This document shows, piece after piece, positions 9,578 to 32,511 of a DNA stretch of 64,000 nucleotides; positions within the stretch are counted from its first letter, which is position 1, and each line of letters opens with the position of its first letter. The stretch spans positions 2,170,001-2,234,000 of the forward strand of contig NZ_JAGINX010000001.1 in NCBI RefSeq assembly GCF_017876395.1, written 5' to 3'. The notes beneath the pieces were generated by a model. It did no database searches and had not been told where the DNA came from. It saw only the letters and a list, made by a program, of their open reading frames with translations. The stretch comes from Nesterenkonia lacusekhoensis. Its GTDB lineage: Bacteria; Actinomycetota; Actinomycetes; Actinomycetales; Micrococcaceae. The position numbers were made by a program, and so were the translations under genes.

Positions 9578-9668
9578 CCCATCCAGAGCGGCTGAGAGAT
9601 CTGGCTCGACGACGCCGCAGCAACCCGAAACGATCCGTTCGCCGGGTGCTACCGCCAGAACCGATGGA
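9578..9668 (+). promoter_or_regulatory. SAM-I riboswitch upstream of the FMN monooxygenase
   Basis: Core elements appear in order. P1 5' strand CCATC (9579-9583) is followed by GAGCGGCTGAGAGATCTGGC, then GACGCCGCAGCAACC, whose GCCGC closes P2. Next come a P3 hairpin around CGATCCGTTCGCC, then GGTGCTACCGCCAG, and the P1 3' strand GATGG (9663-9667). It is the same architecture as the two elements at 24.7-25.0 kb. Only 18 nt separate P1 from the start codon, so translation control is more likely than termination. Confidence 0.9.
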
Positions 9669-9685
9669 AGAGGAGCCATCATCCT

Positions 9686-11089
9686 ATGCCTCACGCCACC
9701 ACACCTTCCGGCCAGCGCGAGATCCTGTTCAACGCCTTCGACATGAACTGCGTGGTCCACCAGTCCCCCGGACTGTGGCGTCACCCTGAGGACCGCGCAC
9801 GGGACTACAACACCATCGGCTACTGGACCCATGTGGCCCAGACCCTGGAGAAGGGCCTCTTCGACGGGCTGTTCATCGCCGACGTGCTCGGTCCCTATGA
9901 CGTCTTCGGCGCCACCCCCGACGCCGCACTGCGCTCCGGCGCCCAGGTTCCGCTGCAGGATCCGTTCCTGCTGGTCAGCGCGATGGCCGCCGTCACCGAG
10001 AACCTCGGCTTCGGACTCACCGCCGGCACCGCCTACGAGCACCCCTACCCCTTCTCCCGCCGGCTGGGCACCCTGGACCACCTCACCGGAGGTCGCGTGG
10101 GCTGGAACGTGGTCACCGGCTACCTGCCCTCGGCCGCCCAAAACATGGGCCAGGACGACCAGATGGAGCACGACCGGCGCTACGACCACGCCGACGAATA
10201 CATGGACGTGGTCTATAAGCTCCTCGAGGGCTCCTGGGAGGACGACGCCGTGGTGGCCGACAAGGAGGCCGGAGTCTTCACCGACCCCACCAAGGTCCAC
10301 CGGATCGAGCACGAGGGAGAGTTCTTCAAGACCCCGGGCATCGGTGTGGTGGAGCCCTCCCCGCAGCGCACCCCGGTCATCTACCAGGCTGGGGCCTCGA
10401 CCCGCGGCCGCGCCTTCGCCGGCAAGCACGCCGAGGCGGTCTTCATCAATCCGCCCACCAAGGAGCTCGCCAAGGCCTCGGTGCAGAAGATCCGTCAGGC
10501 AGCCGCCGACGCCGGCCGCGACCCCTACGATGTGCGCATCTTCGCGATGCAGACCATCGTCACCGGGCCGGACGAGGCCGCCGCTCAGGCCAAATATGAC
10601 GAGCTGACCCAGTACATCGACCCCGAGGGCGGCCTGGTGCTGATGTCTGGCTGGATGGGCACCGACTTCTCCCAGTTCGACCTGGACCAGCCCATCGGCG
10701 ACCTGAAGTCCAACGCCATCCAGTCGACTGTGGAGACCTTCCAGAAGGCCTCCGGACGGGAGGACGAGGTCTGGACGGTGCGCCAGCTGGCCGAATGGGT
10801 CGGCGTCGGGGGCTTCGGACCGGTCATCATCGGCGACGGCCCCTCAGCCGCCCAGCAGCTGATCGAGTGGCAGGAGGAGACCGACGTCGACGGCTTCAAC
10901 CTCGCCTACCACATCACTCCGGGCACCTTTGAAGACATCGTCGAGCACGTGGTCCCGGAGCTGCAGAAGGCCGGCCGGTATAAGACCGAGTACCGGCCGG
11001 GCACGCTGCGGAACAAGCTCTTCGAGAAGGGCGATCACCTGCCGGAGGCCCACCACGGCGCGCAGTTCCAGCTGCGGCGTCGCGGGTGA
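9686..11089 (+). CDS. NtaA/SnaA/DmoA-family FMN-dependent monooxygenase (LLM class)
   Basis: A 467-residue luciferase-fold enzyme that uses reduced FMN and oxygen. Family landmarks are ILFNAFDMNCVVHQSPGLWRH at the N-terminus, GRVGWNVVTGYLPSAAQNMG, YDHADEYMDVVYKLLEGSW, HEGEFFKTPGI and QRTPVIYQAGASTRGRAFA. Relatives oxidise organosulfur or chelating compounds such as dimethyl sulfide, dibenzothiophene sulfone and nitrilotriacetate. Control by a SAM-I riboswitch points to release of sulfur for methionine synthesis. A flavin reductase at 31993 is the likely FMNH2 supplier. The exact substrate is unknown. Start ATG 9686 follows GAAGAGGAG. Confidence 0.88.
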   Translation: MPHATTPSGQREILFNAFDMNCVVHQSPGLWRHPEDRARDYNTIGYWTHVAQTLEKGLFDGLFIADVLGPYDVFGATPDAALRSGAQVPLQDPFLLVSAMAAVTENLGFGLTAGTAYEHPYPFSRRLGTLDHLTGGRVGWNVVTGYLPSAAQNMGQDDQMEHDRRYDHADEYMDVVYKLLEGSWEDDAVVADKEAGVFTDPTKVHRIEHEGEFFKTPGIGVVEPSPQRTPVIYQAGASTRGRAFAGKHAEAVFINPPTKELAKASVQKIRQAAADAGRDPYDVRIFAMQTIVTGPDEAAAQAKYDELTQYIDPEGGLVLMSGWMGTDFSQFDLDQPIGDLKSNAIQSTVETFQKASGREDEVWTVRQLAEWVGVGGFGPVIIGDGPSAAQQLIEWQEETDVDGFNLAYHITPGTFEDIVEHVVPELQKAGRYKTEYRPGTLRNKLFEKGDHLPEAHHGAQFQLRRRG

Positions 11090-11112
11090 TGCTATTGGGT
11101 GTGGGCCCGCGA

Positions 11113-11179: not shown

Positions 11180-11197
11180 AGGGGTCCACACAGAGAG

Positions 11198-11816: not shown

Positions 11817-11817
11817 C

Positions 11818-12756: not shown

Positions 12757-12809
12757 CGGGCGCTGCTCCTCCTGCTGCTCGTCATACGGGGCGTGTCATA
12801 CCGGGCTTG

Positions 12810-17587: not shown

Positions 17588-17644
17588 CAGGGTGGGTGTC
17601 CTTCTGTGTCCAGTGCGGCCGGCAGGCCCTAGCGTTCTCTATCC

Positions 17645-17687: not shown

Positions 17688-17776
17688 AAATGACAGCTTG
17701 TCGGATAGAAGGTGACACAGTGGTGAACAGCAGCGAGCGACGTGGGGAATTCTGAACAACGCCGTAGACTGGAGCG

Positions 17777-18547: not shown

Positions 18548-19894
18548 TCAGCCCAGCTGACGGGCCGGGTGGTCCTCGGCCAGGCGCGGACCGGCGCCCA
18601 GCAGCTGCTCCCGCAGCGTCACCGGGGTCTCCGGGCGCTCCTCCAGCAGGCCGCGGCGCTTCAGTTCCGGGGTCACATAGTGTTCGAACCGCTCGAAGTC
18701 AGCCGGGCGCACCGCCGCGGAGATGTTGAAGCCATCCACTCCGGAGACCTGCTGGAAGTGCTCCAGCTGGTCCACCACCTGAGACGGATCACCCACGATC
18801 AGCGGACCGCGCCCGCCGATCGAGATGAACTCGGCGACGTCGCGCACCGTCCACCGCTGTGAGGGATCCTTGGTGAACATGGCAAGCGCCGACTGGTTGG
18901 CCTCAGTCTGGACATCAGCCACATAGTCCTCATCCCTGAGATCGGAGAGGTCGACGCCGGTCCAGCCGCCGAAGAGCGTCAGCGCCGCCTCAGTGTCCAC
19001 ATACCTCTTATAGTCGGCCAGACGCGCCTGAGCCTCTTCCTCGGTCTCGGCGACGACGACGGTCACCATCGCCGAGAACTTCACCGACTGCGGATCACGT
19101 CCGGCCTCCTTGAGAGCGGCGCGGGTGTCCTGGACCTGCTGAGCCAGCTTCTCCGGCTTGGCATTGATGACGAAGATCGCTTCCCCGTGGTCCACAGCGA
19201 ACTTCTGGCCGCGTGCCGAGGATCCGGCCTGGAAGAGCAGCGGAGTGCGCTGCGGGCCGGGGTGGGTCAGCATCTGGCCCGGCACTGAGAACCAGGGTGA
19301 GCTGTGCTCGATGCCGTGGACCTTCTCCGGATCGGTGAAGACGCCGGTCTCACGATCGGCCACCACCGCCCCATCCTCCACCGAGTGTTCGAAGAGCTTA
19401 TACATGACCTCGAGGAACTCATCAGCCCGGTCATAGCGCTCGTCGTGCGGGATCTGGCCCTCCATGCCCAGGTTCCGCGCCGCAGAGTCCTGGTAGCTGG
19501 TGACGATGTTCCAGGCGATCCGACCCTTGGTCAGGTGATCCAGTGTGGCGAAGCGCCGTGCCAGCAGATAGGGCTGCTCGTAGGTGACCGAGGCCGTCAG
19601 CCCGAATCCCAGGTGTGTGGTGGCTGCGGCCAGCGCCGGGATGATCACCTGCGGATCCAGCAGCGGGTACTGCACTCCCCCGCGGGCGGCGGCGTGGTGG
19701 CTGCTGCCGTAGACGTCATAGAGCCCGGGGACATCGGCCAGGAACAGGCTGGAGAACCCGGCCCGCTCCAGCGTCTGAGCCAGGGAGGTCCAATAGTCCA
19801 GCTGGTCGAACTCATCGATCCTCGACTCCGGATGCCGCCACAGCCCCGGGGACTGGTGGACCGGTACGAGCATGTCGAAGGCGTTGAAGTGCAT
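18548..19894 (-). CDS. Second NtaA/SnaA-family FMN-dependent monooxygenase (LLM class)
   Basis: A 448-residue paralogue of the enzyme at 9686. Landmarks are MHFNAFDMLVPVHQSPGLWRHP, RIAWNIVTSYQDSAARNLGM, YDRADEFLEVMYKLFEHS and LLFQAGSSARGQKFAVDHGE. It is the last gene of the metNIQQ-sfnB operon behind a SAM-I riboswitch, 2 bp after sfnB. This places it in oxidative C-S bond cleavage of an imported sulfur compound, probably with reduced flavin from the reductase at 31993. The two monooxygenases share fold and order of motifs but differ enough to suggest different substrates. Confidence 0.87.
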   Translation of the reverse strand: MHFNAFDMLVPVHQSPGLWRHPESRIDEFDQLDYWTSLAQTLERAGFSSLFLADVPGLYDVYGSSHHAAARGGVQYPLLDPQVIIPALAAATTHLGFGLTASVTYEQPYLLARRFATLDHLTKGRIAWNIVTSYQDSAARNLGMEGQIPHDERYDRADEFLEVMYKLFEHSVEDGAVVADRETGVFTDPEKVHGIEHSSPWFSVPGQMLTHPGPQRTPLLFQAGSSARGQKFAVDHGEAIFVINAKPEKLAQQVQDTRAALKEAGRDPQSVKFSAMVTVVVAETEEEAQARLADYKRYVDTEAALTLFGGWTGVDLSDLRDEDYVADVQTEANQSALAMFTKDPSQRWTVRDVAEFISIGGRGPLIVGDPSQVVDQLEHFQQVSGVDGFNISAAVRPADFERFEHYVTPELKRRGLLEERPETPVTLREQLLGAGPRLAEDHPARQLG

Positions 19895-21222: not shown

Positions 21223-22165
21223 TGACGTCCTCCCAGGCGGAATCGATGTCTCGGTCGAAGGCCGGGGTCAGCAGGCCGTCGAGATACTCGCCGTACCATT
21301 CCCGCACCTCATCGGAGTGATAGGCGGACTTCAGCGCCTCGTACTTCTCCGGCTCCTCCTCGCGGAATCCGGGGCGGGCGCAGACGGTCAGCGCGAAGGG
21401 CAGCGCCTCCTCCTCCGTCTCCATGATCAGGACCTCATCCGGCATGACATCGATCTCAGCGAGCAGGCGGGCGAAGCCGAAGACGGCGTCGACGTCGGGA
21501 TAGATCTGGCCCACAGACTGCTGATCCACCTCCACGAACTCCAGGTCCCTGGGGTTGGAGGTGATGTCGCGGGTGCTCAGCTCGGCCACCCACTTGGACT
21601 CATCGATCTCGATCAGACCGGCCCGCGCCAGCAGCCGGATGCCCCGTCCGTTGTTCGCAGTGTCCACCGGCAGTGCGACCTGGGCGCCGTCGGGGAGGTC
21701 CTCCAAGGAGTGATGCTGGGAGGAGTAGATCCCTGAGGGCTGTTCGAACATGAAGAAGATCGGTTCCAGATCGAGGTCGTTGTCCTCGTTGAACTGCCGC
21801 AGGTAGCTGATGTTCTGGAAGAAGTTGACATCGTACTCGCCGTTGTCCACTGCCGTGTTGGGCTGGATGATGTCGGTGACGTAGGTGGCATCAAAGGTCC
21901 ACCCTTCATCCTCGAGGATCCGCTCGGCGATCTGAGTGGGCTCCTGGAACGGGGCGTTCTCCGTGACGATGATGCGGATCCGCCGATCATCGCCCACCAG
22001 TCCGCAGGAGGCGGTGAGGCTCCCGACGCCGGCCAGCACGCCCAATCCGAGCACCCCGCGGCCAAACTGCCGGCGGGAGACCTCTGCGGGTCCGCCCGCA
22101 CTGCTCGCGCCAGCCGCACTATGTGGGCCAGTCGCCCTGTATGGTCCGGATGCACGGGGGCTCAC
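21212..22165 (-). CDS. MetQ/NlpA-family substrate-binding lipoprotein (Tat-type signal)
   Basis: A 317-residue protein. A twin-arginine signal (SRRQFGRGVLGLGVLAG) precedes a lipobox-like LTASC. The mature domain has the NlpA signature IRIIVTENAPFQEPTQIAERIL, GEYDVNFFQNISYLRQF, and DGAQVALPVDTANNGRGIRLL. It is a close paralogue of the protein encoded just upstream. MetQ proteins bind D/L-methionine. Its place with two flavin-dependent oxygenases suggests that at least one of the two binding proteins takes another sulfur compound. Start GTG 22165 overlaps the previous stop (GTGA). Confidence 0.85.
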   Translation of the reverse strand: MSPRASGPYRATGPHSAAGASSAGGPAEVSRRQFGRGVLGLGVLAGVGSLTASCGLVGDDRRIRIIVTENAPFQEPTQIAERILEDEGWTFDATYVTDIIQPNTAVDNGEYDVNFFQNISYLRQFNEDNDLDLEPIFFMFEQPSGIYSSQHHSLEDLPDGAQVALPVDTANNGRGIRLLARAGLIEIDESKWVAELSTRDITSNPRDLEFVEVDQQSVGQIYPDVDAVFGFARLLAEIDVMPDEVLIMETEEEALPFALTVCARPGFREEEPEKYEALKSAYHSDEVREWYGEYLDGLLTPAFDRDIDSAWEDVNEH

Positions 22166-23049
22166 GCCTGGAACTCTTCCCAGACCTCGGCGGCGTCGTC
22201 GATGGTGATGGAGTCGTCATAGTCCACGACGCCGCCCTGGTAGTCCTCGAACCACTGCTCCACCTCCTCGGACTGGAAGGCATCCTGGAGCAGCTCGGCC
22301 TCCTCGCTGGTGACATCCTCAGGGTTGACCGCCACGACGCAGGTGAAGGGTGTCCGCACCTCCTCGCGGCCGTCCTCGATGGCCAGAGTCGCGTCCTCGA
22401 CGTCGTGGCCGGCCTCAGCGACCAGACGGACGAAGGCGAAGCCGGCGTCGACGTCGGAGAGGGCCCGGGCGCCCTCCTGTTGGTCGGTCTCGATGAAGTC
22501 GAGGTCCTTCGGGTTGCTGGTGATGTCACTCTGGGTGAGTTCGATGACCGGGACGCTCTCATCGATCTCGATCAGCCCCTCGTCGGCGAGCAGCTGCAGG
22601 GCGCGACCGTTGTTGGAGGGGTCCACCGGCAGGTTGATCTGGGCACCGTCGGGCAGCTCGTCCAGGGAGTCATATTCCAAGGAGAAGAGCCCGGCCGGGG
22701 CGTAGTAGACGGAGAACGCCGGAGCGATCTCCGTATCGTTGGAGCGGTTGAAGTTGTCCAAGTAGGCCAGGTGCTGGAAGTAGTTGGCGTCGTACTCGCC
22801 GTCCTGCACCGACTGGTTGGGGATGTTGATGTCGGTGACGTAGCGGATGTCGAGCTCATAGCCCTGGTCCGCCAACTGGTCGGCCACGATCTCCGCAGGC
22901 TCCTGGAAGGGTGCGGACTCGGTGACGATGATGCTGATGGTGTTCTCATCGTCACCGGTCAGGCCGCAGCCGGAGGCGGCCAGCAGGGCGACCGCACCGG
23001 CTGCGGTCAGCGACAGACGGCGGACAGGGGCGTGCGAGTGATCGCTCAT
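22162..23049 (-). CDS. metQ: MetQ/NlpA-family substrate-binding lipoprotein
   Basis: A 295-residue lipoprotein. The signal peptide LSLTAAGAVALLAASGC ends in a lipobox (Cys 28). The mature domain shows ISIIVTESAPFQEPAEIVAD, DGEYDANYFQHLAYLDNF and DGAQINLPVDPSNNGRALQLL, as in methionine-binding MetQ. It is 84 bp downstream of metI and feeds the MetNI transporter. A second, Tat-exported paralogue follows it. Confidence 0.87.
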   Translation of the reverse strand: MSDHSHAPVRRLSLTAAGAVALLAASGCGLTGDDENTISIIVTESAPFQEPAEIVADQLADQGYELDIRYVTDINIPNQSVQDGEYDANYFQHLAYLDNFNRSNDTEIAPAFSVYYAPAGLFSLEYDSLDELPDGAQINLPVDPSNNGRALQLLADEGLIEIDESVPVIELTQSDITSNPKDLDFIETDQQEGARALSDVDAGFAFVRLVAEAGHDVEDATLAIEDGREEVRTPFTCVVAVNPEDVTSEEAELLQDAFQSEEVEQWFEDYQGGVVDYDDSITIDDAAEVWEEFQA

Positions 23050-23133: not shown

Positions 23134-23796
23134 TCAGACGCGTTTGTCGGTCAGGCTGGCCAGCCGTGTCCCGCCCCACTGGACCACAGTGACCAGCAGG
23201 ATCATCAGCACGATGGCCACCAGCATCACGTCGGTCTCGTAGCGGTAGTAGCCGTAGCGGATGGCGAAGTCGCCGATGCCGCCGCCGCCGACCAGCCCGA
23301 CCATGGCCGAGTAGGAGATGAAGCTGACGGTGGTGATGGTGATCGAGCCGATGATCGCCGGCTTGGCGTCCACCAGCAGGACGTTGCGGATGATCTGACC
23401 CCTGGTCGCCCCCATGGCGCGGGAGGCCTCCACTGCTCCGGTGCCGAGCTGGGTGATGTTCTGCTCGACCAGCCGGGCGAAGTACGGGATCGCGTTGATG
23501 GTCAGCGGCACGATCGCCGCCGCAGTGCCCACTGTGGTGCCCACCAGCAGGCGGGTGAAGGGGATGATCGCGATCAGCAGGATCAGGAACGGGAAGGACC
23601 GGATCGTGTTGACGATGCCGTTGACCACGGCATGGGTCTTGGGCAGCGGAGCGATTCCGCCCGGGGCGTGGATGAACAGCCAGATCCCCACCGGAGTGCC
23701 CAGCAGCACCGCCAAAGGGATCGCGACGCCGATCATCGCGAAGGTCTGGAGCATCGCCTCGCTGAACTCGGGCAGCAGCTGGATGACACGTTCCAT
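23134..23796 (-). CDS. metI: Methionine-type ABC transporter permease
   Basis: A 220-residue permease with five helices. The MetI signature EASRAMGATRGQIIRNVLLVDAKPAIIGS forms the cytoplasmic coupling loop. The first helices cover FAMIGVAIPLAVLLGTPVGIWLF and IVNTIRSFPFLILLIAIIPF. Start ATG 23796 overlaps the metN stop codon (TGATG). Confidence 0.92.
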   Translation of the reverse strand: MERVIQLLPEFSEAMLQTFAMIGVAIPLAVLLGTPVGIWLFIHAPGGIAPLPKTHAVVNGIVNTIRSFPFLILLIAIIPFTRLLVGTTVGTAAAIVPLTINAIPYFARLVEQNITQLGTGAVEASRAMGATRGQIIRNVLLVDAKPAIIGSITITTVSFISYSAMVGLVGGGGIGDFAIRYGYYRYETDVMLVAIVLMILLVTVVQWGGTRLASLTDKRV

Positions 23797-24650
23797 CAGC
23801 GGACACCTCCTGCTGCGGTGAGATTCTCCTCCACCCGAGGAGCAGGCGTGGGCGCGCTCTCTTCCGCACCGGCGGTGTGCCCGCCGCCGCGGTCCACGTT
23901 GATCCCATCGCTCATCAGGTAACGGCCGATGGAGGTCCTCGGAGTGAAGTCCTCGCGGTGCAGGTCAGCGGCAGGGAACTTCTCCACCAGCCGGCCGTCC
24001 TCCATGACCGCGACGTCGTCGGCCAGAGCCTTGATGACCTCCATCTCATGGGTCACGATCACCACGGTGATGCCCAGGTCCCGGTTCACATCGGCCAGGT
24101 ACTGCAGCACCGTCGCCGTGGTGAAGGGGTCCAGGGCAGAGGTGGGCTCATCGCAGAGCAGCACCTGAGGGCGGGTGGCCAGGGCACGAGCGATGGCCAC
24201 CCGCTGCTTCTGGCCGCCGGAGAGCTGGGCCGGATAGGCCTTGGCCTTCTCCGTGATGTCCACGATCTCCAGGGCCTCGGCCGCACGGGCCTGGCGGACG
24301 CTCTTGGAGCTCTCTCCCGCGAACTTCAGGGAGAGCTCCACATTCTGGGCCACTGTCAGGTTGTTCACCAGGTTGAAGCCCTGGAAGATCATGCCGATCT
24401 GGTGGCGAGCCTGGCGCAGCTCCTCCCCGTCCAGCGAGGTCAGCTCGGTGCCGGCGACCTCCACCTCGCCCGTGCTGGGACGCTCGAGCAGGTTGATGTT
24501 GCGCAGCAGCGTGGATTTTCCGGCACCGGAGAAGCCGATGATGCCTTGGATGCTCCCCTGCGGGATCTCAAGGCTCACATCTTCGACGGCGACCACCGGC
24601 TCCTTGCCGCGGGCGGCGAAGGTCGTGGTGACATGGCGCAATGAAATCAT
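23796..24650 (-). CDS. metN: Methionine-type ABC transporter ATPase
   Basis: About 284 residues. Walker A GFSGAGKSTLLR, signature LSGGQKQRVAIARAL, Walker B LLCDEPTSALDP and switch His IVTHEMEVIKALAD are complete. After the ATPase domain a short C-terminal part (DFTPRTSIGRYLM) is present, shorter than the full NIL/C2 regulatory domain of E. coli MetN, so transinhibition by internal methionine may be missing. ATG 24650 is preferred over a GTG at 24656 because GGAG lies 7 nt upstream of the ATG. It is the first gene behind a leftward SAM-I riboswitch. Confidence 0.92.
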   Translation of the reverse strand: MISLRHVTTTFAARGKEPVVAVEDVSLEIPQGSIQGIIGFSGAGKSTLLRNINLLERPSTGEVEVAGTELTSLDGEELRQARHQIGMIFQGFNLVNNLTVAQNVELSLKFAGESSKSVRQARAAEALEIVDITEKAKAYPAQLSGGQKQRVAIARALATRPQVLLCDEPTSALDPFTTATVLQYLADVNRDLGITVVIVTHEMEVIKALADDVAVMEDGRLVEKFPAADLHREDFTPRTSIGRYLMSDGINVDRGGGHTAGAEESAPTPAPRVEENLTAAGGVR

Positions 24651-24658
24651 GAACACTC

Positions 24659-24744
24659 TCCATCGTTCCTGGCGTTAGCACCGAGCCCCGAGGGGTGGTT
24701 GCTGCGACATCTTCGAGCCAGATCTCTCAGTCGCTCTGGATGGT
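24659..24744 (-). promoter_or_regulatory. SAM-I riboswitch upstream of metNIQQ-sfnB operon
   Basis: Read on the minus strand: P1 CCATC (24743-24739), GAGCGACTGAGAGATCTGGC, GATGTCGCAGCAACC, a CCCCTCGGGG P3 hairpin, GGTGCTAACGCCAG and the P1 3' strand GATGG next to AGAG. GCGAC pairs with GTCGC in P2, a compensated version of the GCGGC/GCCGC pair in the other two elements. The GGAG ribosome-binding site overlaps the last bases of P1. Confidence 0.92.
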
Positions 24745-24926: not shown

Positions 24927-25024
24927 ACCATCCCGAGCGGCTGAGAGATCTGGCTCTGTGACGCCGCAGCAACCATCGGAGAGACGTCCTCTCCCCGAAA
25001 GGTGCTACCGCCAGGATCGATGGG
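24927..25024 (+). promoter_or_regulatory. SAM-I riboswitch upstream of the ssu-metY operon
   Basis: P1 CCATCC (24928-24933), GAGCGGCTGAGAGATCTGGC, GACGCCGCAGCAACC, a long P3 (GGAGAGACGTCCTCTCC), GGTGCTACCGCCAG and P1 3' strand GATGG (25019-25023) are all present. The ribosome-binding site GGGAG overlaps the P1 3' strand, and the ATG is at 25037. Confidence 0.92.
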
Positions 25025-25036
25025 AGTGATTTTCCT

Positions 25037-25900
25037 ATGGGCTCGTCCGCACCCACCCTGGAGCGCGACGCCGTCAGCACCGCCGGAACCGGCGGCCATG
25101 ACGCACCCACCCCGCTTCCGGCGGCCGCCCCGCCGGCGCCTTCGCTCGCTGTGGATCTGCTCAATGTGGGCAGGACCTTCGGCGAGCGCACTGTGCTGCG
25201 CGACGTCTCCCTGGAGATCCGTCCCGGTGAGGTCATCGCCATCCTGGGCTCCTCCGGCTGCGGCAAGTCCACGCTGCTGCGTCAGGTCGGAGGCCTGGAC
25301 ACCGGCCACCAGGGCCAGATCCTCATCGCTGGCGAGCCGGTGCGGCGCTACGACCCGCGTACGGCCGTCGGCTTTCAGGAGCCCCGGCTGCTGCCGTGGC
25401 GCTCGATCCGGAAGAACGTCGCACTCGGGCTGCCTCGCGGGCTTCCCAAGGCTCAGGGCCGTGAACGGGTCGATGAGCTCCTGGAACTGGTCGGGCTGAG
25501 CGATCGCGCTCATCTGCGTCCCCGCGAGATCTCCGGAGGCATGGCCCAGCGCGCCTCCCTGGCGCGGGCGCTGGCCCGCCGCCCCGGGGTGCTGCTGCTC
25601 GACGAGCCGTTCGGCGCCCTCGACGCTCTGACCCGTCTGAAGATGCAGGACCTGCTCCTCGACGTCCACGCCCAGACCGGCACCACTGTGCTGCTGGTGA
25701 CCCACGACGTCGACGAGTCCCTGCAGCTGGCCGACCGCATCCTGCTGTTGGGCGCTGAGGAGCACGCCGAGCGCGAAGGCGCCACCATCACCCGGCTGCT
25801 CACCGTGCCCGGCCGACGCCCCCGCTCCCGCTCCTCCGCCGAGTTCGCCGCTCTGCGCGAGGAGCTGCTCTCCGGGCTGGGCGTGGACGGGACCCACTGA
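25037..25900 (+). CDS. ssuB: Sulfonate/taurine-type ABC transporter ATPase
   Basis: A 287-residue ATPase with Walker A GSSGCGKSTLLR, the family-typical FQEPRLLPWRSIRKNV (Q-loop of SsuB/TauB proteins), signature ISGGMAQRASLARAL, Walker B LLLDEPFGALDALTR and switch His VTHDVDESLQLADR. A Pro/Ala-rich extension of about 35 residues precedes the ATPase domain. It is the first gene of an operon with a binding protein, a permease and methionine-synthesis genes, behind a SAM-I riboswitch. The solute is probably an alkanesulfonate or similar organosulfur compound. Confidence 0.87.
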   Translation: MGSSAPTLERDAVSTAGTGGHDAPTPLPAAAPPAPSLAVDLLNVGRTFGERTVLRDVSLEIRPGEVIAILGSSGCGKSTLLRQVGGLDTGHQGQILIAGEPVRRYDPRTAVGFQEPRLLPWRSIRKNVALGLPRGLPKAQGRERVDELLELVGLSDRAHLRPREISGGMAQRASLARALARRPGVLLLDEPFGALDALTRLKMQDLLLDVHAQTGTTVLLVTHDVDESLQLADRILLLGAEEHAEREGATITRLLTVPGRRPRSRSSAEFAALREELLSGLGVDGTH

Positions 25901-26070
25901 CGCCGTGGTGCATCCGCGGATGCACCCGTCCCCTCCCCGCCCCTGGACCGGAGGCGGAGAGCTGCGGCCCCGCTCCTGGACCTGGCCCCGCCCCTCCTGA
26001 GAACCCGCCCGTGACCGTGTCCATCGCCGGCACAGTCCGCCACATCCGTTTCACCACCGAAAGGCCTCAC

Positions 26071-27135
26071 ATGCCCACCACCGCTCGCCGATTCACCCGC
26101 TCCGCCCAGGCTCTCTGCGGCACTGCAGCTGTGATGCTGCTGGCCACCTCCTGCGGCTCCGGGGAGAACGACGGCGAGCTGGAGACGCTCACCATCGATT
26201 TCGCCACCTACAACCCGCTCTCCCTGGTCATGCTGGAGCACGGCTGGCTGGAGGAGGAGCTCGAAGAGCTGGGCACCGAGGTCCAGTGGATCCAGTCCCA
26301 CGGCTCCAACCAGGCCAACGAGAACCTGCGGGCCGGCAACCTGGACGTGGGCTCCGCCGCCGGTTCCGCCGCGCTGCTGAACCGTTCGGTGGGTGCTGAT
26401 GTCCACACCTTCTACGTGGAGTCCCAGCCCGAATGGTCGGCGCTGGTGACCACCCCGGATTCCGACATCCAAGGCCCGGAGGACCTCGAGGGCGCGTCGG
26501 TGGCCGCCACCCCGGCCACGGACCCCTTCTTCTTCCTGGCCCGCTCGCTGGAGGAGGCGGGCCTGACGACGGCGGATGTGGAGGTCCAGGCTCTGCAGCA
26601 TGCCGATGGCCGTCAGGCCCTGGAGAACGGCGACGTCGATGCCTGGGCGGGCCTGGACCCGATCATGGCCGATGCGGAGCTGAGCGGGGCTGAGCTGGTG
26701 CACCGCGACGTCGACTTCAACACCTACTCCACGATCAACGCCACCGCTGATTTCCTGGAGGGTCATCCCGAGGTCGCCCAGACTGTGGCCGACGTCTACG
26801 AACAGGCTCGTCAGTGGGCCCTGGAGCACCCGGAGGAGACCGCCGAGATCCTCGCCGAGCATGCGAGCATCGACCTCGAGGTCGCCGAGCTGGTCCTCGA
26901 GGAGCGGGTGGACTTCGACATCGATCCGGTGCCCGGAGACGACCTCCGTCAGTCCCTGGAGCCGGTGGGTCCTGCTTTCGTGGAGAACGGCGACGTCGAC
27001 TCCCAGGATCAGGTGGACGAGGCTCTCGAGGAGCTCTTCTTCACCGACTATGCCGAGCAGGCTGAGCCCTCCGACGCCGAGGGCTCTGAGGACGCGGCCG
27101 AGGAAGCCGACATCGCAGAGGATGAGGACGCATGA
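26071..27135 (+). CDS. ssuA: Sulfonate-type ABC transporter substrate-binding lipoprotein
   Basis: A 354-residue lipoprotein. The signal peptide ends in LLATSC and is followed by an acidic linker. The NMT1/SsuA-type fold shows LTIDFATYNPLSLVMLEHGWLEEEL, LRAGNLDVGSAAGSAALLN and VAATPATDPFFFLARSLEEAGL. The C-terminus has an extra strongly acidic tail (about 30 residues, mostly Glu/Asp/Ala). ATG 26071 is chosen because it starts the signal peptide and follows GAAAGG; upstream codons in the same frame look non-coding. There is a 170-bp gap after ssuB with no feature seen. Confidence 0.85.
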   Translation: MPTTARRFTRSAQALCGTAAVMLLATSCGSGENDGELETLTIDFATYNPLSLVMLEHGWLEEELEELGTEVQWIQSHGSNQANENLRAGNLDVGSAAGSAALLNRSVGADVHTFYVESQPEWSALVTTPDSDIQGPEDLEGASVAATPATDPFFFLARSLEEAGLTTADVEVQALQHADGRQALENGDVDAWAGLDPIMADAELSGAELVHRDVDFNTYSTINATADFLEGHPEVAQTVADVYEQARQWALEHPEETAEILAEHASIDLEVAELVLEERVDFDIDPVPGDDLRQSLEPVGPAFVENGDVDSQDQVDEALEELFFTDYAEQAEPSDAEGSEDAAEEADIAEDEDA

Positions 27136-28049
27136 GCCAGGTCTCCACCGCCTCCGCAGCCCCCGCGGACTCGAGCGACGCCGCGGTCAGCGGAACCTCC
27201 GCTGAGAGCACCGCCTCCGCGGCCCCCGCCAGCAGCACCGGAGACAGCGCCTCCGGAAAGGCCCGTCGCACTGCCGAGCCGACCCGCCGCGGACTGCATC
27301 CGCTGACCAAAGTCGCCGTGGGCGCCGTCGTGCCGCTGCTCCTGCTGGCCGTGTGGTGGGTGGTGACCGAGGAGCTGGAGATCTTCTCCCCCATCCAGCT
27401 GCCCGCTCCGCTGGATGTCTATGAGGCCGGCGTCGGGCTCTACGAATCGGGCCTGCTCGCCGAGCACATGAGCATCTCGCTGCAGCGGGTGCTGCTGGGC
27501 TTCGGCGTCGGTGCCGGACTGGGACTGGCGCTGGGCTCGCTGCTGGGCCTGTCGAAGATCGCTGACCTTCTGCTCAACCCGACTGTGGGAGCCTTCCGTG
27601 CCGTCCCCTCCCTCGCCTGGGTTCCGCTGCTGCTGCTCTGGGTGGGCATCGGTGAGGACTCCAAGGTCCTGCTGATCGCCATCGGCGCGTTCTTCCCCGT
27701 CTTCACCTCAGTCCACTCGGCGCTGCGCCACGTGGATCCGCAGCTGGTGGAGGCCGGCCGGGCGTTCGGCTTCCACGGCCTGCGCCTGTTGGGCACCGTC
27801 CAGCTGCCCGCCGTGGTGCCTCCGGTGTTCTCCGGACTGCGCTTGGGGCTGGCGCAGGCCTGGCTGTTCCTGGTCGCCGCTGAGCTGCTGGCCGCGGCCG
27901 AGGGGCTCGGGTTCCTGCTGACCGAATCGCAGAACAACGGCCGCACCGACCGCCTGCTGCTGGCGATCGTGCTGCTGGCCCTGCTGGGCAAGCTCACCGA
28001 TGCTCTGCTCGGTGTGATCGAACGAAAGGCGCTGACGAAATGGGCCTGA
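27132..28049 (+). CDS. ssuC: Sulfonate-type ABC transporter permease
   Basis: A 305-residue BPD-type permease. The first 55 residues are a Ser/Ala/Thr-rich cytoplasmic segment, unusual in length for SsuC. Helices follow, for example VAVGAVVPLLLLAVWWVV and ALGSLLGLSKIADLLLNPT. The coupling loop is VEAGRAFGFHGLRLLGTVQLPAVVPPVFSGLRL. It overlaps the ssuA stop by 4 bp and the next gene by 10 bp. Confidence 0.87.
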   Translation: MSQVSTASAAPADSSDAAVSGTSAESTASAAPASSTGDSASGKARRTAEPTRRGLHPLTKVAVGAVVPLLLLAVWWVVTEELEIFSPIQLPAPLDVYEAGVGLYESGLLAEHMSISLQRVLLGFGVGAGLGLALGSLLGLSKIADLLLNPTVGAFRAVPSLAWVPLLLLWVGIGEDSKVLLIAIGAFFPVFTSVHSALRHVDPQLVEAGRAFGFHGLRLLGTVQLPAVVPPVFSGLRLGLAQAWLFLVAAELLAAAEGLGFLLTESQNNGRTDRLLLAIVLLALLGKLTDALLGVIERKALTKWA

Positions 28050-30160
28050 GCACACACACCAGGACCGCACACCCACGGGCCGCCCACACCAGGACCGCAC
28101 ACCCGCTGGAGTCCGACGTCCATGCCTGGGATGAGCCGGACCTGAGCGATGACACCCCGGAGGCAGAGGCCGCGCGGTTGGACTTCTGGGCCCGGGCCGC
28201 AGGACTGCTGGACTGGGAGACCGGCTTCCAGACCACCCACAGCTGGACCCCGCCTGACCCTGAGGCCCGGCGCGGCCCGCAGATGCGCTGGTTCGAGGAC
28301 GGGAAGCTCAACGCGGCGGTGAACTGCGTGGACCGTCATGTCCAGACCGGCCGCGGCGACGTCGTCGCTCTGCACTTCGAGGGCGAGCCGGGCGATCGCG
28401 AGGACGTCACCTACGCCGACCTGCAGGAGAGGGTGAACCGGGCCGCCAACGCCCTGGAGTCCCTCGGCGTCACCCAGGGCGACCGCGTGGTCATCTACCT
28501 GCCGGTGCTGGTGGAGACCATCGTGATCACGCTGGCCTGCGCGCGGATCGGTGCGGTGCATTCGCTGGTCTTCGGCGGCTTCTCCGCTGAGGCGCTGCAG
28601 TTCCGCGTGGAGGACACCGGGGCCAAGCTGCTGGTCACCACCGACGGCCAGTTCCGGCGCGGCAGGGCGGTCCCGGTCAAGGAGAACGCCGACGCCGCCG
28701 TCGCCGGGGAGAACCAGATCGAACACGTGCTGGTGCTGCGCCGCACCGGCAGTGAGATCCCGTGGAGCTCCGAGGACCTCAACGGCGACGGCCTGGGCCG
28801 CGACATCTGGTGGCACGAGATCGTCGACACCGCCTCGGCCGAGCACGAGCCGCAGTTCTTCGAGGCCGAGACCCCGCTGTTCATCATGTACACCTCGGGG
28901 ACCACCGGAAAGCCCAAGGGGCTGGTGCACACCACCGGCGGCTACCTGACCGGTGCTGTCTACAGCTACCTGCGGCTGTTCGCGCATCCGGATCCGGACC
29001 AGCGCGACGCCGACGTCCATTGGTGCACCGCCGACCTCGCCTGGGTCACCGCCCACACCTATGAGATGTACGGGCCGCTGGGCGCCGGAGCCACCCAGGT
29101 GATCTACGAGGGCGTGCCGAACGTCCCCCACGCCGGTCGGCACTTCGAGATCATCCAGCGCCACCGGGTGACCAGCTACTACACCGCCCCCACGCTGATC
29201 CGTTCGCTGATGGGATGGTGGCCTTCAGGCATCCCTGCCGACTATGACCTCTCCTCCATCCGTCTGGGCGGGACCGTGGGAGAGGCGGTGAACCCGGAGG
29301 CCGCCGAGTGGCTGCGCCGGGAGATCGGCCGGGACACCCGGGAGGAGGGGAACGACGCCGGCCGGCCGGCCCTCCCACTGGTGGACACCTGGTGGCAGTC
29401 CGAGTCCGGCTCCACCGTCCTCTCCCCCAGGCCGGAGCAGCGGGATCCCTCCCGGTTCAAGCCGGGTTCGGTGGCCCGGGAGATGCCCGGATGGAAGACC
29501 GCCGTGGTCGATGAGTTCGGCAACCCCTCGGGCACCGACGTCCAGGGCAACATCGTCGTCACCCGGACCGGGCCCTCCATGGCACGGACCGTCTGGGGCG
29601 ACCCGGAGCGGTTCTACACCTCCTACTGGGAGAAGTACGCCCAGGCCGAGGGCGGTCGCGGCTGGTTCCTCGCCGGGGACGGGGCCCGCCGCGACGCCGA
29701 GGGCGACATCTGGATCCTGGGCCGCATCGACGACGCCATCAATGTCTCCGGCCATCTGCTCTCCACCATCGAGATCGAATCCGCCCTGGTGACCCATCCC
29801 GATGTGGTCGAGGCCGGCGTCGCGCCCTGCTATGACGCCACCACCGGTCATGCCGCCGTCGCCTTCGTGGTGCTCAGCGGCAGCGGGCGGCACCGCTCCG
29901 AGGAGGAGCTGTTGCCGGAGCTGCGCGCCCATGTGGGAGAGGTCATCGGTCCGGTGGCCAAACCGCGCACAGTGATCGTCGTGCCGGAGGTCCCCAAGAC
30001 CAGATCGGGGAAGATCATGCGCCGGCTGCTGACCCAGCTGCACGACGGTGAGACCCTCGGCGACACCACAAGCCTGCAGAACGAACCCTGCGTCCCCCAG
30101 ATCCAACAGATCTGCGAAGACCTTAAGACCGCACACCAGAGAGAAGAGGCCACAGCATGA
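28040..30160 (+). CDS. Acetyl-CoA synthetase-like AMP-forming acyl-CoA ligase
   Basis: A 706-residue adenylate-forming enzyme. The P-loop is YTSGTTGKPKGLVHT, the A5-type motif DTWWQSESGS, the A7 LAGDGARRD, the hinge GRIDDAINVSGHLLST, and the catalytic Lys is K658 in TRSGKIMRR. The Trp of the WWQ(S)E motif that limits acyl size in acetyl-CoA synthetase is kept, so acetate or another short acid is likely. It is more divergent than housekeeping Acs (VPNVPHAGRHFEI in place of the usual PNWPTPARM-type loop). The N-terminus carries a 30-bp duplication (28055-28074, 28085-28104). Its place between ssuC and metY suggests that it activates an acid made during desulfonation or supplies acetyl-CoA for O-acetylhomoserine. 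Confidence 0.8.
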   Translation: MGLSTHTRTAHPRAAHTRTAHPLESDVHAWDEPDLSDDTPEAEAARLDFWARAAGLLDWETGFQTTHSWTPPDPEARRGPQMRWFEDGKLNAAVNCVDRHVQTGRGDVVALHFEGEPGDREDVTYADLQERVNRAANALESLGVTQGDRVVIYLPVLVETIVITLACARIGAVHSLVFGGFSAEALQFRVEDTGAKLLVTTDGQFRRGRAVPVKENADAAVAGENQIEHVLVLRRTGSEIPWSSEDLNGDGLGRDIWWHEIVDTASAEHEPQFFEAETPLFIMYTSGTTGKPKGLVHTTGGYLTGAVYSYLRLFAHPDPDQRDADVHWCTADLAWVTAHTYEMYGPLGAGATQVIYEGVPNVPHAGRHFEIIQRHRVTSYYTAPTLIRSLMGWWPSGIPADYDLSSIRLGGTVGEAVNPEAAEWLRREIGRDTREEGNDAGRPALPLVDTWWQSESGSTVLSPRPEQRDPSRFKPGSVAREMPGWKTAVVDEFGNPSGTDVQGNIVVTRTGPSMARTVWGDPERFYTSYWEKYAQAEGGRGWFLAGDGARRDAEGDIWILGRIDDAINVSGHLLSTIEIESALVTHPDVVEAGVAPCYDATTGHAAVAFVVLSGSGRHRSEEELLPELRAHVGEVIGPVAKPRTVIVVPEVPKTRSGKIMRRLLTQLHDGETLGDTTSLQNEPCVPQIQQICEDLKTAHQREEATA

Positions 30161-31458
30161 CTGATGACCGCACCTTCGGCTTCCGCACGCGAGCGCTGCA
30201 CGCCGGCGCCGTCCCGGACGCCACCTACGGCACCCGTGCGGTGCCGATCCACCAGTCCACCTCGTTCGTCTTCAAAGACACCGACGACGCCGCCAACCTG
30301 TTCGCCCTGCAGAAGTACGGCAACATCTACTCCCGGATCGGCAACCCGACCGTCGCCGCTCTGGAGGAGCGCCTCGCCTCACTGGAGGGCGGCATCGGAG
30401 CGGTGGCCACGGCGTCGGGAATGTCCGCGGAGTTCCTGGTCTTCGCCGCCCTGTGCGGCCAGGGCGACCACATCGTCGCCAGTTCCAAGCTCTACGGCGG
30501 GACCGTCACCCAGCTGGATGTGAGCCTGCGCCGCTTCGGCATCGAGACCACCTTTGTGGACTCGGACGAGGCCGAGGACTTCGCCGCGGCGGTCCAGGAG
30601 AACACCAAGCTGATCTTCACCGAGATCGTCTCCAACCCCAGCTCCGATGTGGTGGATCTGCGTGGTCTGGCCGATGTGGCCCACGAGCGCGGCATCCCGC
30701 TGGTGGTGGACTCCACGCTGACCACTCCGTACCTGATCCGGCCGATCGAGCACGGCGCCGACATCGTCACCCATTCGGTCACCAAGTTCCTGGGCGGGCA
30801 CGGCACCACCCTGGGCGGTGTGATCGTGGAGTCCGGGACGTTCCCGTGGAACAACGGCAACTTCCCGCAGATGACCGAAGAGGTCCCCTCCTACGGCGGA
30901 CTGACCTGGTGGGGGAACTTCGCCGAGTACGGCTTCCTCACCAAGATCCGTGCCGAGCAGCTGCGCGACTTCGGCCCCAGCCTCACCCCGCAGGCCGCCT
31001 TCCAACTGATCCAGGGAATCGAAACCCTGCCTCAGCGCATTGAAGAACATGTGAGCAACGCGCAGCGGGTGGCCGAATGGCTCGACGCCGACGACCGCGT
31101 CGAGTACGTGAACTATGCCGGCCTGCCCGCCCACCCGCACCACGCCCGCGGCAAGGAGCTGCTGCCCCAGGGGGTCGGCTCGGTCTTCAGCTTCGGCGTG
31201 AAGGGTGGCCGCGAGGTCGGTGCGGACTTCATCGGCAGGCTGCAGCTGGCCAGCCACCTGGCCAATGTGGGCGATGCCCGCACCCTGGTGCTGCACCCGG
31301 CCTCCACCACCCACCAGCAGCTCAGCACCGAGCAGCTGGACGCCGCCGGCATCCCTGATGACCTGGTGCGCATCTCCGTGGGTCTCGAAGACGTCGAGGA
31401 CATCATCTGGGACCTGGACCAGGCCCTGACCGCCGCTCTGGAAGGAGCACAGGCATGA
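30157..31458 (+). CDS. metY: O-acetylhomoserine aminocarboxypropyltransferase (sulfhydrylase)
   Basis: A 433-residue PLP enzyme of the Cys/Met metabolism family. It begins FGFRTRALHAGAVPDATYGTRAVPIHQSTSF, has the MetY-type long insertion between the catalytic region and the end, and PLP binds K210 (HSVTKFLGGHGTTLGG). It condenses O-acetylhomoserine with sulfide to homocysteine, or with methanethiol to methionine. Located downstream of sulfonate-import genes and under the same SAM riboswitch, it is the probable sink for sulfur released by the monooxygenases. It overlaps the preceding and following genes by 4 bp. Confidence 0.93.
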   Translation: MTDDRTFGFRTRALHAGAVPDATYGTRAVPIHQSTSFVFKDTDDAANLFALQKYGNIYSRIGNPTVAALEERLASLEGGIGAVATASGMSAEFLVFAALCGQGDHIVASSKLYGGTVTQLDVSLRRFGIETTFVDSDEAEDFAAAVQENTKLIFTEIVSNPSSDVVDLRGLADVAHERGIPLVVDSTLTTPYLIRPIEHGADIVTHSVTKFLGGHGTTLGGVIVESGTFPWNNGNFPQMTEEVPSYGGLTWWGNFAEYGFLTKIRAEQLRDFGPSLTPQAAFQLIQGIETLPQRIEEHVSNAQRVAEWLDADDRVEYVNYAGLPAHPHHARGKELLPQGVGSVFSFGVKGGREVGADFIGRLQLASHLANVGDARTLVLHPASTTHQQLSTEQLDAAGIPDDLVRISVGLEDVEDIIWDLDQALTAALEGAQA

Positions 31459-31982
31459 CCGCCACCGTTGAGAACACCCAGCACCCGCATGGCTCCTGGG
31501 AGGAGCCCGGCCCGGCCCGGCGCCTGCAGCTGCTGCGCAGCGCCGAGTCCGTGGCCATCGTGGGCATGTCGAATAAGCCCGCCCGGGCCAGCTACTTCGT
31601 GGGCACCTACCTGACCTCGGACTCCAGCTACCGGCTCTACTGGATCAACCCTGCCCTGGAGGGCAAGGAAGTCCTGGGCCGTCCCGGCTACGCCTCTCTG
31701 GCAGATCTGCCGGAGTCCCCGGACATCGTGGTGGCCTTCCGCAAGCCCGCCGATCTGCCGGCGCTGGCTGAGGACGCCGCCCAGGCCGGAGCCAAGACTC
31801 TGTGGGTCCAGCTGGGCATCCATTCGGAGGAGGCGATGCAGAAGGCCACGGACCTGGGGCTGAACGCCGTGCAGAACCGCTGCATCAAAATCGAGCACGG
31901 GCGCTTCCACGGCAATCTGCATCTGGGCGGCTTCGACACCGGAGTCATCAGCGCCAAGCGCCAGCTCCGGGACGAGGGATGA
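31455..31982 (+). CDS. CoA-binding-domain protein (YccU-like)
   Basis: A 175-residue single-domain Rossmann protein. SVAIVGMSNKPARASYFVGTYL is the glycine-rich nucleotide loop, and LWVQLGIHSEEAMQKATDLGLNAVQNRCIKIEH is the typical C-terminal half. Relatives bind CoA but have no assigned reaction. It is translationally coupled to metY (ATGA overlap). That link recurs in actinobacteria and suggests a function in homocysteine or acyl-CoA handling. Confidence 0.82.
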   Translation: MTATVENTQHPHGSWEEPGPARRLQLLRSAESVAIVGMSNKPARASYFVGTYLTSDSSYRLYWINPALEGKEVLGRPGYASLADLPESPDIVVAFRKPADLPALAEDAAQAGAKTLWVQLGIHSEEAMQKATDLGLNAVQNRCIKIEHGRFHGNLHLGGFDTGVISAKRQLRDEG

Positions 31983-31992
31983 GGGGTCGTCC

Positions 31993-32511
31993 ATGAGTGA
32001 TGTCCAGCCCCGTGCCTTCGATCCCCTGGACCTGCGGCGGGCCTTCTCCCAGTTCCCCCAGGGCGTGGTCACCGTCGCTGCGGAGGTGGACGGTCGGCCG
32101 GAAGTCCTGCTGGCCTCCACCTTCACCGTGGGCGTCTCCCTGGAGCCGCCGCTGGTGACCTTCGCGGTCCAGCACACCTCCTCGACCTGGCCGAAGCTGC
32201 GCGACGGCGCCTCCCGCCTGGGCATCTCGGTTATCGGGCGCGAGCATTCGGACCTGTGCCGGCAGATCGCCTCGAAGGACCGAGAGAACCGGTTCGCCGG
32301 CGTCGGGTATCACGTGGCCGAGGACGGGGCACTCATCCTCGAGGATGTGCCGATGTGGCTGAACACGCGCATCCACTCCCAGTTCGCCGCAGGCGACCAT
32401 GACGTGGTCGTCCTGGAGGTGATGGACCTGGGCGTACAGGAGGACGCAGAGCCTGTGGCCTTCCACCGCAGCGAGTTCAAGGAGCTCTCCCCGCTGACCG
32501 TGCGCGTCTGA
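31993..32511 (+). CDS. Flavin reductase family protein (HpaC/NtaB-like)
   Basis: A 172-residue split-barrel flavoprotein: LRRAFSQFPQGVVTVAAEVDGRPEVLLASTFT, VSLEPPLVTFAVQHTSSTWPKLRDG and GISVIGREHSDLCRQIASKDRENRF are the family blocks. Such enzymes reduce FMN or FAD with NAD(P)H and deliver it to separate monooxygenases. It is the last gene of the riboswitch-controlled operon and the only flavin reductase in the window, so it probably serves the two LLM monooxygenases and SfnB. Confidence 0.88.
   Translation: MSDVQPRAFDPLDLRRAFSQFPQGVVTVAAEVDGRPEVLLASTFTVGVSLEPPLVTFAVQHTSSTWPKLRDGASRLGISVIGREHSDLCRQIASKDRENRFAGVGYHVAEDGALILEDVPMWLNTRIHSQFAAGDHDVVVLEVMDLGVQEDAEPVAFHRSEFKELSPLTVRV

Follow-up and report, generated by a model that had tools for sequence, protein, structure and literature searches.

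P4-less SAM-I aptamers at the head of predicted organosulfur-scavenging operons in Nesterenkonia lacusekhoensis

Three elements in a 64,000-nt stretch of the Nesterenkonia lacusekhoensis genome (the window) are SAM-I riboswitch aptamers, as judged from score and core, in a variant without the P4 helix. Probably they are working riboswitches that switch expression off at the level of the Shine-Dalgarno (SD) sequence, and the 14 genes behind them would be the part of a wider SAM regulon that serves to scavenge organic sulfur.

When the window was scanned with cmscan (Rfam 15), three matches to the SAM-I family RF00162 scored above its gathering score of 44.4: 9576-9670 on the plus strand (aptamer 1; 52.6 bits, E 2.9e-9), 24657-24746 on the minus strand (aptamer 2; 58.7 bits, E 5.1e-11), and 24925-25026 on the plus strand (aptamer 3; 55.2 bits, E 5.3e-10). 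The other matches at the gathering threshold were three tRNAs only. A sequence-only reading of this DNA had assigned the three elements to SAM-I and proposed a covariance search, which thus bears out the assignment for all of them; the core letters it quoted as common are present in all three sequences. Aptamer 1 occupies 9579..9667, with P1 (CCATC/GATGG) at 9579-9583 and 9663-9667, and AACC links the pseudoknot strand CCAG to P1. Aptamer 2 occupies 24660..24743, the last G of P1 being at 24660, and aptamer 3 occupies 24928..25023. R1, a model made in this analysis, gave 97.7 bits for aptamer 1 and 99.5 bits for aptamer 3.

In the cmscan alignment, the 17 model positions of the P4 region are set against one nucleotide in all three aptamers, and the P2 loop has one nucleotide more than in RF00162. 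P4 is absent, yet the RF00162 score and the core fit; the elements are therefore regarded as SAM-I in a P4-less variant. Three to four nucleotides join the pseudoknot to P1 in place of P4 in 168 of 170 distinct aptamers (from 294 matches), a set holding only aptamers that fit the subtype pattern, which canonical P4-bearing ones do not. P1, P2, P3, the internal loop of P2 and the P2-loop pseudoknot are kept, with pairing in 99.7% of cells across 122 distinct sequences. In these sequences, 9 of 23 pairs are changed on both sides, a level reached in none of 500 shuffles, and three pairs of the pseudoknot are so changed. A first alignment of 30 near-identical sequences had given one such pair of 23, equalled by 142 of 500 shuffles. 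P1 reads CCATC/GATGG in 114 of 126 aptamers.

The Rfam consensus includes P4, and its loss might be the mark of decayed or re-targeted aptamers in which SAM binding is lost. This seems extremely unlikely in view of the constant linker, the compensatory changes in the retained helices and pseudoknot, and the first genes, which are mostly sulfur or methionine genes. Furthermore, 22 of 23 highly conserved SAM-I positions are present, by hand mapping on the cmscan alignment of the list in PMC3764141.

Out of 297 genomes in the order, RF00162 and R1 each matched 128, and in 114 the RF00162 cut-off was exceeded; since RF00162 matches as many genomes as R1, the idea that Rfam misses the P4-less type was dropped. 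Two long-P3 copies score below that cut-off. A further search took in 84 chosen sources, with E no higher than 1e-10. To see which genes come first after P4-less aptamers elsewhere, 36 of 44 listed ORFs were scanned, leaving out both L185 entries (window genes) and L187, L189, L191, L197, L204 and L222 (doubtful frames). They included 11 ABC ATPases, 6 LLM oxygenases, 4 NIR_SIR reductases, 3 MTHFR, 3 SBP_bac_5, 2 flavin reductases and 2 of peroxiredoxin type. At L187, the aptamer is followed by what we take, by eye, to be a rhodanese-like ORF and then a frame resembling homoserine sulfhydrylase. It should be mentioned that the longest ORF was the wrong first gene at some loci, and that several leaders listed as having no gene carry leader-peptide ORFs. 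In other families, some P4-less aptamers are stacked on a leader-peptide ORF.

SAM-I/IV (RF01725) belongs to the same clan of SAM riboswitches. According to PMC2864571 it lacks the internal loop in P2; this loop is present in the window aptamers, and membership was dropped as RF01725 has no match in the genome. SAM-IV (RF00634) resembles the window aptamers in that its structure line has no helix between P3 and P1. It has 9 nt there, about four of which would lie 3' of the pseudoknot strand. However, the window aptamers are without the hairpin found 3' of P1 in SAM-IV, and they were not among the RF00634 matches in the genome up to E 10. The likeness to SAM-I (S-box, RF00162) extends to P1, P2 with its internal loop, P3, the P2-loop pseudoknot, the conserved core and the sulfur genes, whereas the lack of P4, the 3-4 nt linker and the extra P2-loop nucleotide are differences. 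A ribosome-binding site (RBS) in or adjoining P1 of SAM-I was reported before (PMC2258182) and is a further likeness; an RBS within P1 as a new finding was dropped accordingly. What is new is the aptamer without P4, with a 3-4 nt linker and a covarying pseudoknot; no description of P4-less SAM-I was found in the literature searched. Somewhat speculatively, the P4-less type might be a separate minimal three-helix subclass, the common core of SAM-I and SAM-IV without either outer scaffold. Nesterenkonia would then split SAM sensing between SAM-IV (metY-metX) and P4-less SAM-I (scavenging), and in other families P4-less SAM-I would be combined with a leader-peptide attenuator: SAM would decide whether the peptide is made, and the peptide would in turn respond to an amino acid, perhaps cysteine.

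The position of the SD sequence is close to P1 in all three leaders. The SD of the first LLM monooxygenase gene (LLM1), AGAGGAG at 9669..9675 on the plus strand, lies one nucleotide past P1 and does not overlap it. In aptamer 2 (metN) the SD duplex begins at the last two G of P1, and in aptamer 3 (ssuB) P1 nucleotides form part of it. In 145 of 178 leaders (matches that ended 60 nt or less from the edge of a locus were dropped), P1 is followed within 35 nt, the median being 11 nt, by the start of an ORF 90 aa or longer, or 60 if open-ended; in 131 of these 145, the best SD:anti-SD duplex takes in at least 2 nt of P1. The remaining 33 (25 with a short ORF, 8 with none) mean that other platforms exist.

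When SAM is plentiful, it is predicted to bind between P1 and P3, and P1 would close. The 3' strand GATGG of the closed P1 would overlap the SD (metN, ssuB) or adjoin it by one nucleotide (LLM1); owing to this placement, the leading gene of each operon is proposed to be translated less. When SAM is scarce, P1 would open and the operons would be translated. Both this OFF logic and the translational level of control are predictions. In free-energy folding of the three leaders, the SD was not clearly freer when P1 was absent; folding was thus uninformative, and thermodynamic proof of SD release was dropped. Invariance of P1 was likewise dropped as proof of a double role, because the pattern used to collect aptamers had P1 fixed and many canonical actinobacterial leaders also read GATGAG followed by a purine-rich SD. 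Transcription attenuation is common among Firmicutes SAM-I riboswitches, and some relatives have longer leaders. Nevertheless, it is very unlikely that the present switches work by attenuation rather than by hiding the SD: the start codon follows P1 after only 18 nt in LLM1, 9 nt in metN and 13 nt in ssuB, and a scan of 24500-25200, around the divergent metN/ssuB pair, found no terminator-like site.

The operons behind aptamers 1, 2 and 3 comprise one, six and seven genes, in agreement with the 14 counted earlier. The single gene, LLM1 (9686..11089, plus strand), encodes an FMN-dependent monooxygenase of the NtaA/DmoA family (TIGR03860, 546.2 bits; subfamily cut-off 279.7). The metN-metI-metQ-metQ-SfnB/DszC-like-LLM unit (24650-18548, minus strand, by HMM) begins with a metN-like ABC ATPase (23796..24650, start ATG at 24650; PF00005), which scores 278.8 bits against the TIGR02314 equivalog cut-off of 499.7 and matches profile positions 1-236 of 343, with 237-343 unmatched. 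It is followed by a metI-like permease (23134..23796; PRK10782, 190 bits, cut-off 212), two metQ-like NlpA lipoproteins (22162..23049 and 21212..22165; PF03180, 185 and 161.3 bits), an SfnB/MsuC/DszC-like flavin monooxygenase of the acyl-CoA dehydrogenase family (19897..21222), and LLM2 (18548..19894), also of the NtaA/DmoA family (TIGR03860, 488.6 bits, cut-off 279.7). The third unit (25037-32511, plus strand, by HMM) consists of an ssuB-like ABC ATPase (25037..25900; best NCBIfam PRK11247, 217.6 bits, cut-off 395), an ssuA sulfonate-type binding protein (26011..27135; TIGR01728, 173 bits, cut-off 163.5), an ssuC-like permease (27132..28049; PF00528; PRK11365, 160.8 bits, cut-off 347), acs for acetate--CoA ligase (28040..30160; PRK00174, 763.6 bits, cut-off 657; TIGR02188, 719.1, just below 724.95), metY of the O-acetylhomoserine sulfhydrylase subfamily (30157..31458; TIGR01326, 584.8 bits, cut-off 495.1), a CoA-binding protein (CoA_binding_2, 31455..31982; PF13380, 112.3 bits) and a flavin reductase (31993..32511; PF01613, 105.1 bits).

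MetN, MetI, SsuB and SsuC all score under their NCBIfam equivalog or subfamily cut-offs, and the SfnB-like protein reaches 266.1 bits against the TIGR04022 equivalog cut-off of 430.9, so that "SfnB" denotes a likeness and not a name. The nearest solved chains to this protein are TdsC (5xb8) and methanesulfinate monooxygenase (6u76). Dimethyl-sulfide monooxygenase 6ak1 is nearest among solved chains to LLM1 (51.0% identity) and LLM2 (46.6%). From family membership we infer C-S cleavage, the sulfur donor of MetY and the response to SAM. A search for viral copies of LLM1 gave 12 stretches that fit a pattern, none of them a relative.

Among 30 Nesterenkonia genomes, the present one included, a SAM-I of its own precedes 65 of the 68 units whose first gene is ssuB, metN, acs or that for the flavin reductase (by script: SsuB 19/19, MetN 21/22, flavin reductase 23/25, Acs 2/2). 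SAM-I precedes 6 of 19 LLM1 heads by script; of the 13 misses, 9 sit behind a diverged SfnB-like gene inside a SAM-I-headed unit, and two have a long-P3 aptamer found by R1 only (L136 3932-4092 and L164 17827-17987). With these two added, 17 of 90 heads scored by script are without an aptamer; in 9 of the 17, the diverged SfnB-like gene comes before the head. The count covers the window and L136-L171 at identity of at least 50%, and aptamer-less heads were left out if the locus ended no more than 450 nt away. Across the genus the units have been reshuffled, divided and joined, yet most heads keep SAM-I, which argues for one co-controlled organosulfur gene set; good comparative evidence thus suggests a single SAM-controlled organosulfur regulon.

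This regulon is not confined to the window. RF00162 has four matches in the genome, and the fourth, a P4-bearing paralogue at C1:133 kb, is some 2.05 Mb distant from the window; it stands ahead of a 52-aa ORF that has no family match; as a general target this ORF was dropped, being present in 2 of 30 genomes only. SAM-IV heads a second metY with metX and is the sole RF00634 match above cut-off in the genome. The earlier proposal of one local regulon therefore holds for co-control and fails for locality. The proposal that one SAM-gated pathway runs all the way from uptake to homocysteine goes too far, because the NIR_SIR reductase found with cysH-cysD-cysN is encoded at another place (C1:2062 kb) and in this genome has no SAM-I.

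As to the chemistry, the two ABC importers would take up sulfonate- or thioether-type compounds, and the three flavin monooxygenases would oxidise them, fed by the co-encoded flavin reductase. MetY would add the sulfide (or thiol) set free in this way to O-acetylhomoserine, Acs possibly reclaiming acetate, and the second metY and metX would be under the separate SAM-IV riboswitch. These substrates and the flux are predicted. Within the same regulon, DmoA-like oxygenases might instead release methanethiol or another thiol, from which MetY would make methionine directly with O-acetylhomoserine, leaving sulfite reduction and homocysteine off the main route. The kinship of both LLM enzymes to DmoA and the position of the cysH-linked reductase outside SAM-I control fit this route, as does methanethiol use by MetY, stated for Pelagibacter, with SAM-V ahead of metY, in PMC5069961. 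It seems rather unlikely, since the orthologous reductase-cysH unit has SAM-I in 6 of 29 other genus genomes, the SsuABC and SfnB/MsuC-like genes suit a sulfone or sulfonate route ending in sulfite, and TIGR03860 relatives among solved chains use many different substrates.

That one flavin reductase serves several oxygenases, as proposed earlier for three, has an experimental precedent in the dimethyl sulfide/sulfone assimilation of Acinetobacter baylyi ADP1 (PMC13352529); against it, the genome has two PF01613 matches. ADP1 is alike in having flavin monooxygenases of two groups with one flavin reductase, induced there without sulfate; it is unlike in that the main text mentions no riboswitch, and the sections consulted describe no MetY-Acs unit. 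In Pelagibacter, SAM-V and SAM-II riboswitches likewise stand over metY and other sulfur genes, SAM-V being translational, but these are different aptamer classes, and organosulfur transporters are not raised in the available part of PMC5069961.

The organosulfur-scavenging set of a little-studied actinobacterial genus thus appears to be under direct SAM control. Because operons break and fuse while the switch mostly remains at the head, the genus offers a clean comparative test. The P4-less form provides a natural deletion series for the role of P4 in SAM-I and for the kinship of SAM-I and SAM-IV. Since a genome of 2.7 Mb has SAM riboswitches of two classes, and relatives place SAM-I on leader peptides, layered control of sulfur metabolism becomes testable.

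The three elements in the window, at 9576-9670 (+), 24657-24746 (-) and 24925-25026 (+), are matched by the Rfam SAM-I covariance model RF00162 at 52.6-58.7 bits, all above the curated cut-off of 44.4 bits. Their identity as SAM-I, proposed in the sequence-only reading, was thus borne out for all three, and the sequences and coordinates quoted there were correct. The aptamers head three units: a single gene for the monooxygenase LLM1 (9686-11089); a six-gene unit, metNIQQ followed by genes for an SfnB-like flavin monooxygenase and a second LLM enzyme, LLM2; and a seven-gene unit, ssuBAC-acs-metY-CoA_binding-flavin reductase. These units of one, six and seven genes account for the 14 genes counted in that reading. 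The whole genome (2.74 Mb) has four RF00162 matches, the fourth lying beyond the window on the same genome's contig C1 at 133294-133404.

Between the SAM-I units, at 11818-18541, are genes for an ABC importer resembling phosphonate types, a HAD-type phosphatase, an endonuclease/phosphatase-family protein and a GntR/UTRA regulator, with no SAM-I aptamer at their head. A signal peptidase-like gene (32538-33026) begins 27 nt past the flavin reductase gene, among the mapped genus loci in the window only. For the MetN-like ATPase (23796-24650), the match covers positions 1-236 of the 343-position profile, and the C-terminal part seems to be absent. In E. coli MetN, this part is a regulatory domain.

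Both LLM1 and LLM2 exceed the NtaA/DmoA family cut-off, with identities of 51.0% and 46.6%, respectively, to the dimethyl-sulfide monooxygenase 6ak1, and the solved chains closest to the SfnB-like enzyme are TdsC and a methanesulfinate monooxygenase. Flavin reductase (PF01613) matches number two in the genome, one of them within the cluster. According to the available text of PMC13352529, A. baylyi ADP1 has several such oxygenases, which are induced without sulfate and all served by one flavin reductase; that of PMC5069961 describes a Pelagibacter MetY that can accept methanethiol. The adjacency of acs and metY suggests that Acs may recover the acetate released by MetY.

RF00162 matches are present in all 30 Nesterenkonia genomes searched, including this one, and the window genes and P4-less-type aptamers were mapped in regions of all 30. 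The SfnB-like enzyme shares 91% identity with a protein of Nesterenkonia cremea. Of the 57 loci matched by it, from which its own record may be missing, the best 20 include 19 labelled Nesterenkonia, and on this basis the window is assigned to that genus. LLM1 shows 84-92% identity in most mapped loci and 96-97% in the nearest, and is better conserved than most neighbouring genes. The gene order of the cluster is highly variable: LLM1 stands by itself, follows a diverged SfnB-like gene, or is fused to the metN unit, and the flavin reductase gene is at the head of its own unit or at the end of another.

One regulon predicts that the sensors track the transcription units across this variation. 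By script, an aptamer was found within 450 nt of the unit head in 71 of 90 cases (SsuB 19/19, MetN 21/22, flavin reductase 23/25, Acs 2/2, LLM1 6/19, SfnB-like 0/2, LLM2 0/1), versus 9 of 243 unit-internal genes. Nine of the 13 LLM1 heads scored as lacking an aptamer stand behind a diverged SfnB-like gene, whose unit has one at its head. Another two have, upstream of LLM1, a 161-nt aptamer whose P3 is greatly lengthened (L136:3932-4092 and L164:17827-17987), overlooked by the pattern and detected by R1, the model made here for this aptamer type; RF00162 scores these at about 33 bits, below the cut-off. The two misses left over are loci L142 and L146. From the head-versus-internal counts and the sorted LLM1 misses, sensor placement largely tracks transcription units. 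This comparison supports the proposed SAM-I-headed organosulfur gene set as a real regulon, ordinary in its logic.

In cmscan alignments, the 17 consensus positions of P4 face 1 nt in each of the three window aptamers. Among 170 distinct aptamers fitting the sequence signature of this P4-less subtype, the linker between the pseudoknot strand and P1 is 4 nt in 163, 3 nt in 5 and 20 nt in 2; the last two, the fourth copy of this genome and one in genome G005, might each have a short P4. An alignment of 126 matches (122 distinct) has standard pairs in 99.7% of pair cells, both sides changed in 9 of 23 pairs, three of them pseudoknot pairs, and covariation values reached by none of 500 shuffles; being fitted to the model, it leans towards it, and the pseudoknot is not part of the model. 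In an earlier alignment the 30 sequences were nearly identical, leaving too little variation for covariation to show. Natural compensatory pseudoknot variants, with both sides changed, occur in L224 and L222 (CUAG/CUAG and GUGG/CCAC). The P4-less form is a clade-wide structural subtype.

These aptamers keep the SAM-I core. As in SAM-IV, there is no helix between P3 and P1; they leave no room for the SAM-IV hairpin 3' of P1. According to the available text of PMC2864571, SAM-I/IV variants lack the P2 internal loop; the SAM-I/IV model RF01725 has no match in this genome. R1, which also matches P4-bearing aptamers weakly, has hits in 128 of the 297 genomes searched in the order, with up to 13 matches per genome; G385 is the genome with 13, the highest among the 297. 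RF00162 likewise matches 128 of the 297 (114 above the cut-off), which means that Rfam does detect the P4-less type. Sampling the class gave R1 matches in 135 of 296 genomes, mostly below 54 bits. The low-scoring aptamers that were inspected (L227-L243 except L236) look canonical, with P4; P4-less ones were recognised by inspection in 13 genomes. The literature search found no recognised description of P4-less SAM-I and no paper joining Nesterenkonia and riboswitch, and the type is unmentioned in the available text of PMC3764141, PMC8250186, PMC3651934 and PMC3766115. Since figures and most subscription papers were outside its reach, this is weak evidence that the type is new to the literature.

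The distance from P1 to the start codon is 18 nt for LLM1, 9 nt for metN and 13 nt for ssuB. The best SD:anti-SD duplex takes in P1 nucleotides for metN and ssuB and starts one nt past P1 for LLM1. Among relatives, 145 of 178 leaders have an ORF start within 35 nt of P1, and in 131 of these 145 the best SD duplex includes at least 2 nt of P1. A ribosome-binding site in or next to P1 of SAM-I was already reported by Barrick and Breaker (available text of PMC2258182). A search of the divergent metN/ssuB region turned up no terminator-like site. In free-energy folding, ligand-free P1 pair probabilities are 0.01-0.04; a freer SD is not evident from the folding itself. Upstream of the SfnB-like gene in L036, L040, L042, L043 and L048, P4-less aptamers lead into a longer leader in which no start is evident close to P1; a different expression platform may operate there.

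Thirty-three leaders have no long ORF near P1, and 25 of them have a short one. The NCBIfam scan covered ten sequences: nine of the encoded peptides and the 52-aa ORF behind the fourth aptamer. Five passed the cut-off of NF042934, 'putative leader peptide' (L206, L207, L208, L210 and L218; 27.9-36.6 bits against 27), the L194 peptide was 0.3 bits short, and L215, L216, L220 and the 52-aa ORF had no NCBIfam match; none of seven peptides tested had a Pfam match. In L194 and the five passing loci, from other actinobacterial families, the short ORF directly follows the P4-less aptamer. Given the NF042934 matches, P4-less SAM-I in some other families appears to gate a leader peptide before a NIR_SIR reductase or a transporter/binding-protein gene, and in these six loci a SAM riboswitch appears to be stacked on a leader-peptide attenuator. 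The fourth aptamer and its 52-aa ORF span C1:133126-133404 (-; L001:1333-1611). This ORF is present in 2 of 30 Nesterenkonia genomes. It converges with a frame that has a weak match to the MetE catalytic domain, and its role may be that of a leader, a small protein or antisense control.

At C1:2062 kb, a NIR_SIR reductase gene forms an array with cysH, cysD and cysN, and from this context the enzyme is taken for a sulfite reductase. It reaches no NCBIfam cut-off, the best model being ferredoxin-nitrite reductase (334.5 bits versus 594 needed); a second NIR_SIR frame is at C1:157852. The whole-genome RF00162 search found no SAM-I leader at the C1:2062 kb gene. Among the loci retrieved, such a leader is found on orthologous reductases (77-83% identity) in 6 of 29 other genus genomes (L172, L173, L176, L177, L181 and L182), P4-less and heading NIR_SIR reductase-cysH units, and on 60-63% identical reductases of four more distant genomes (L194, L206, L208 and L220). 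Since six genus genomes have it and this one does not, SAM-I control of these units was gained or lost inside the genus.

A SAM-IV riboswitch (C1:1920724-1920840, -; L133:9724-9840; 111.3 bits) is directly followed by a second metY and then metX, and RF00634 exceeds its cut-off in this genome only there. Together with the SAM-I elements, this gives the genome two SAM aptamer classes. The organosulfur regulon, built from a clade-wide aptamer subtype, shares its genome with a second SAM class.
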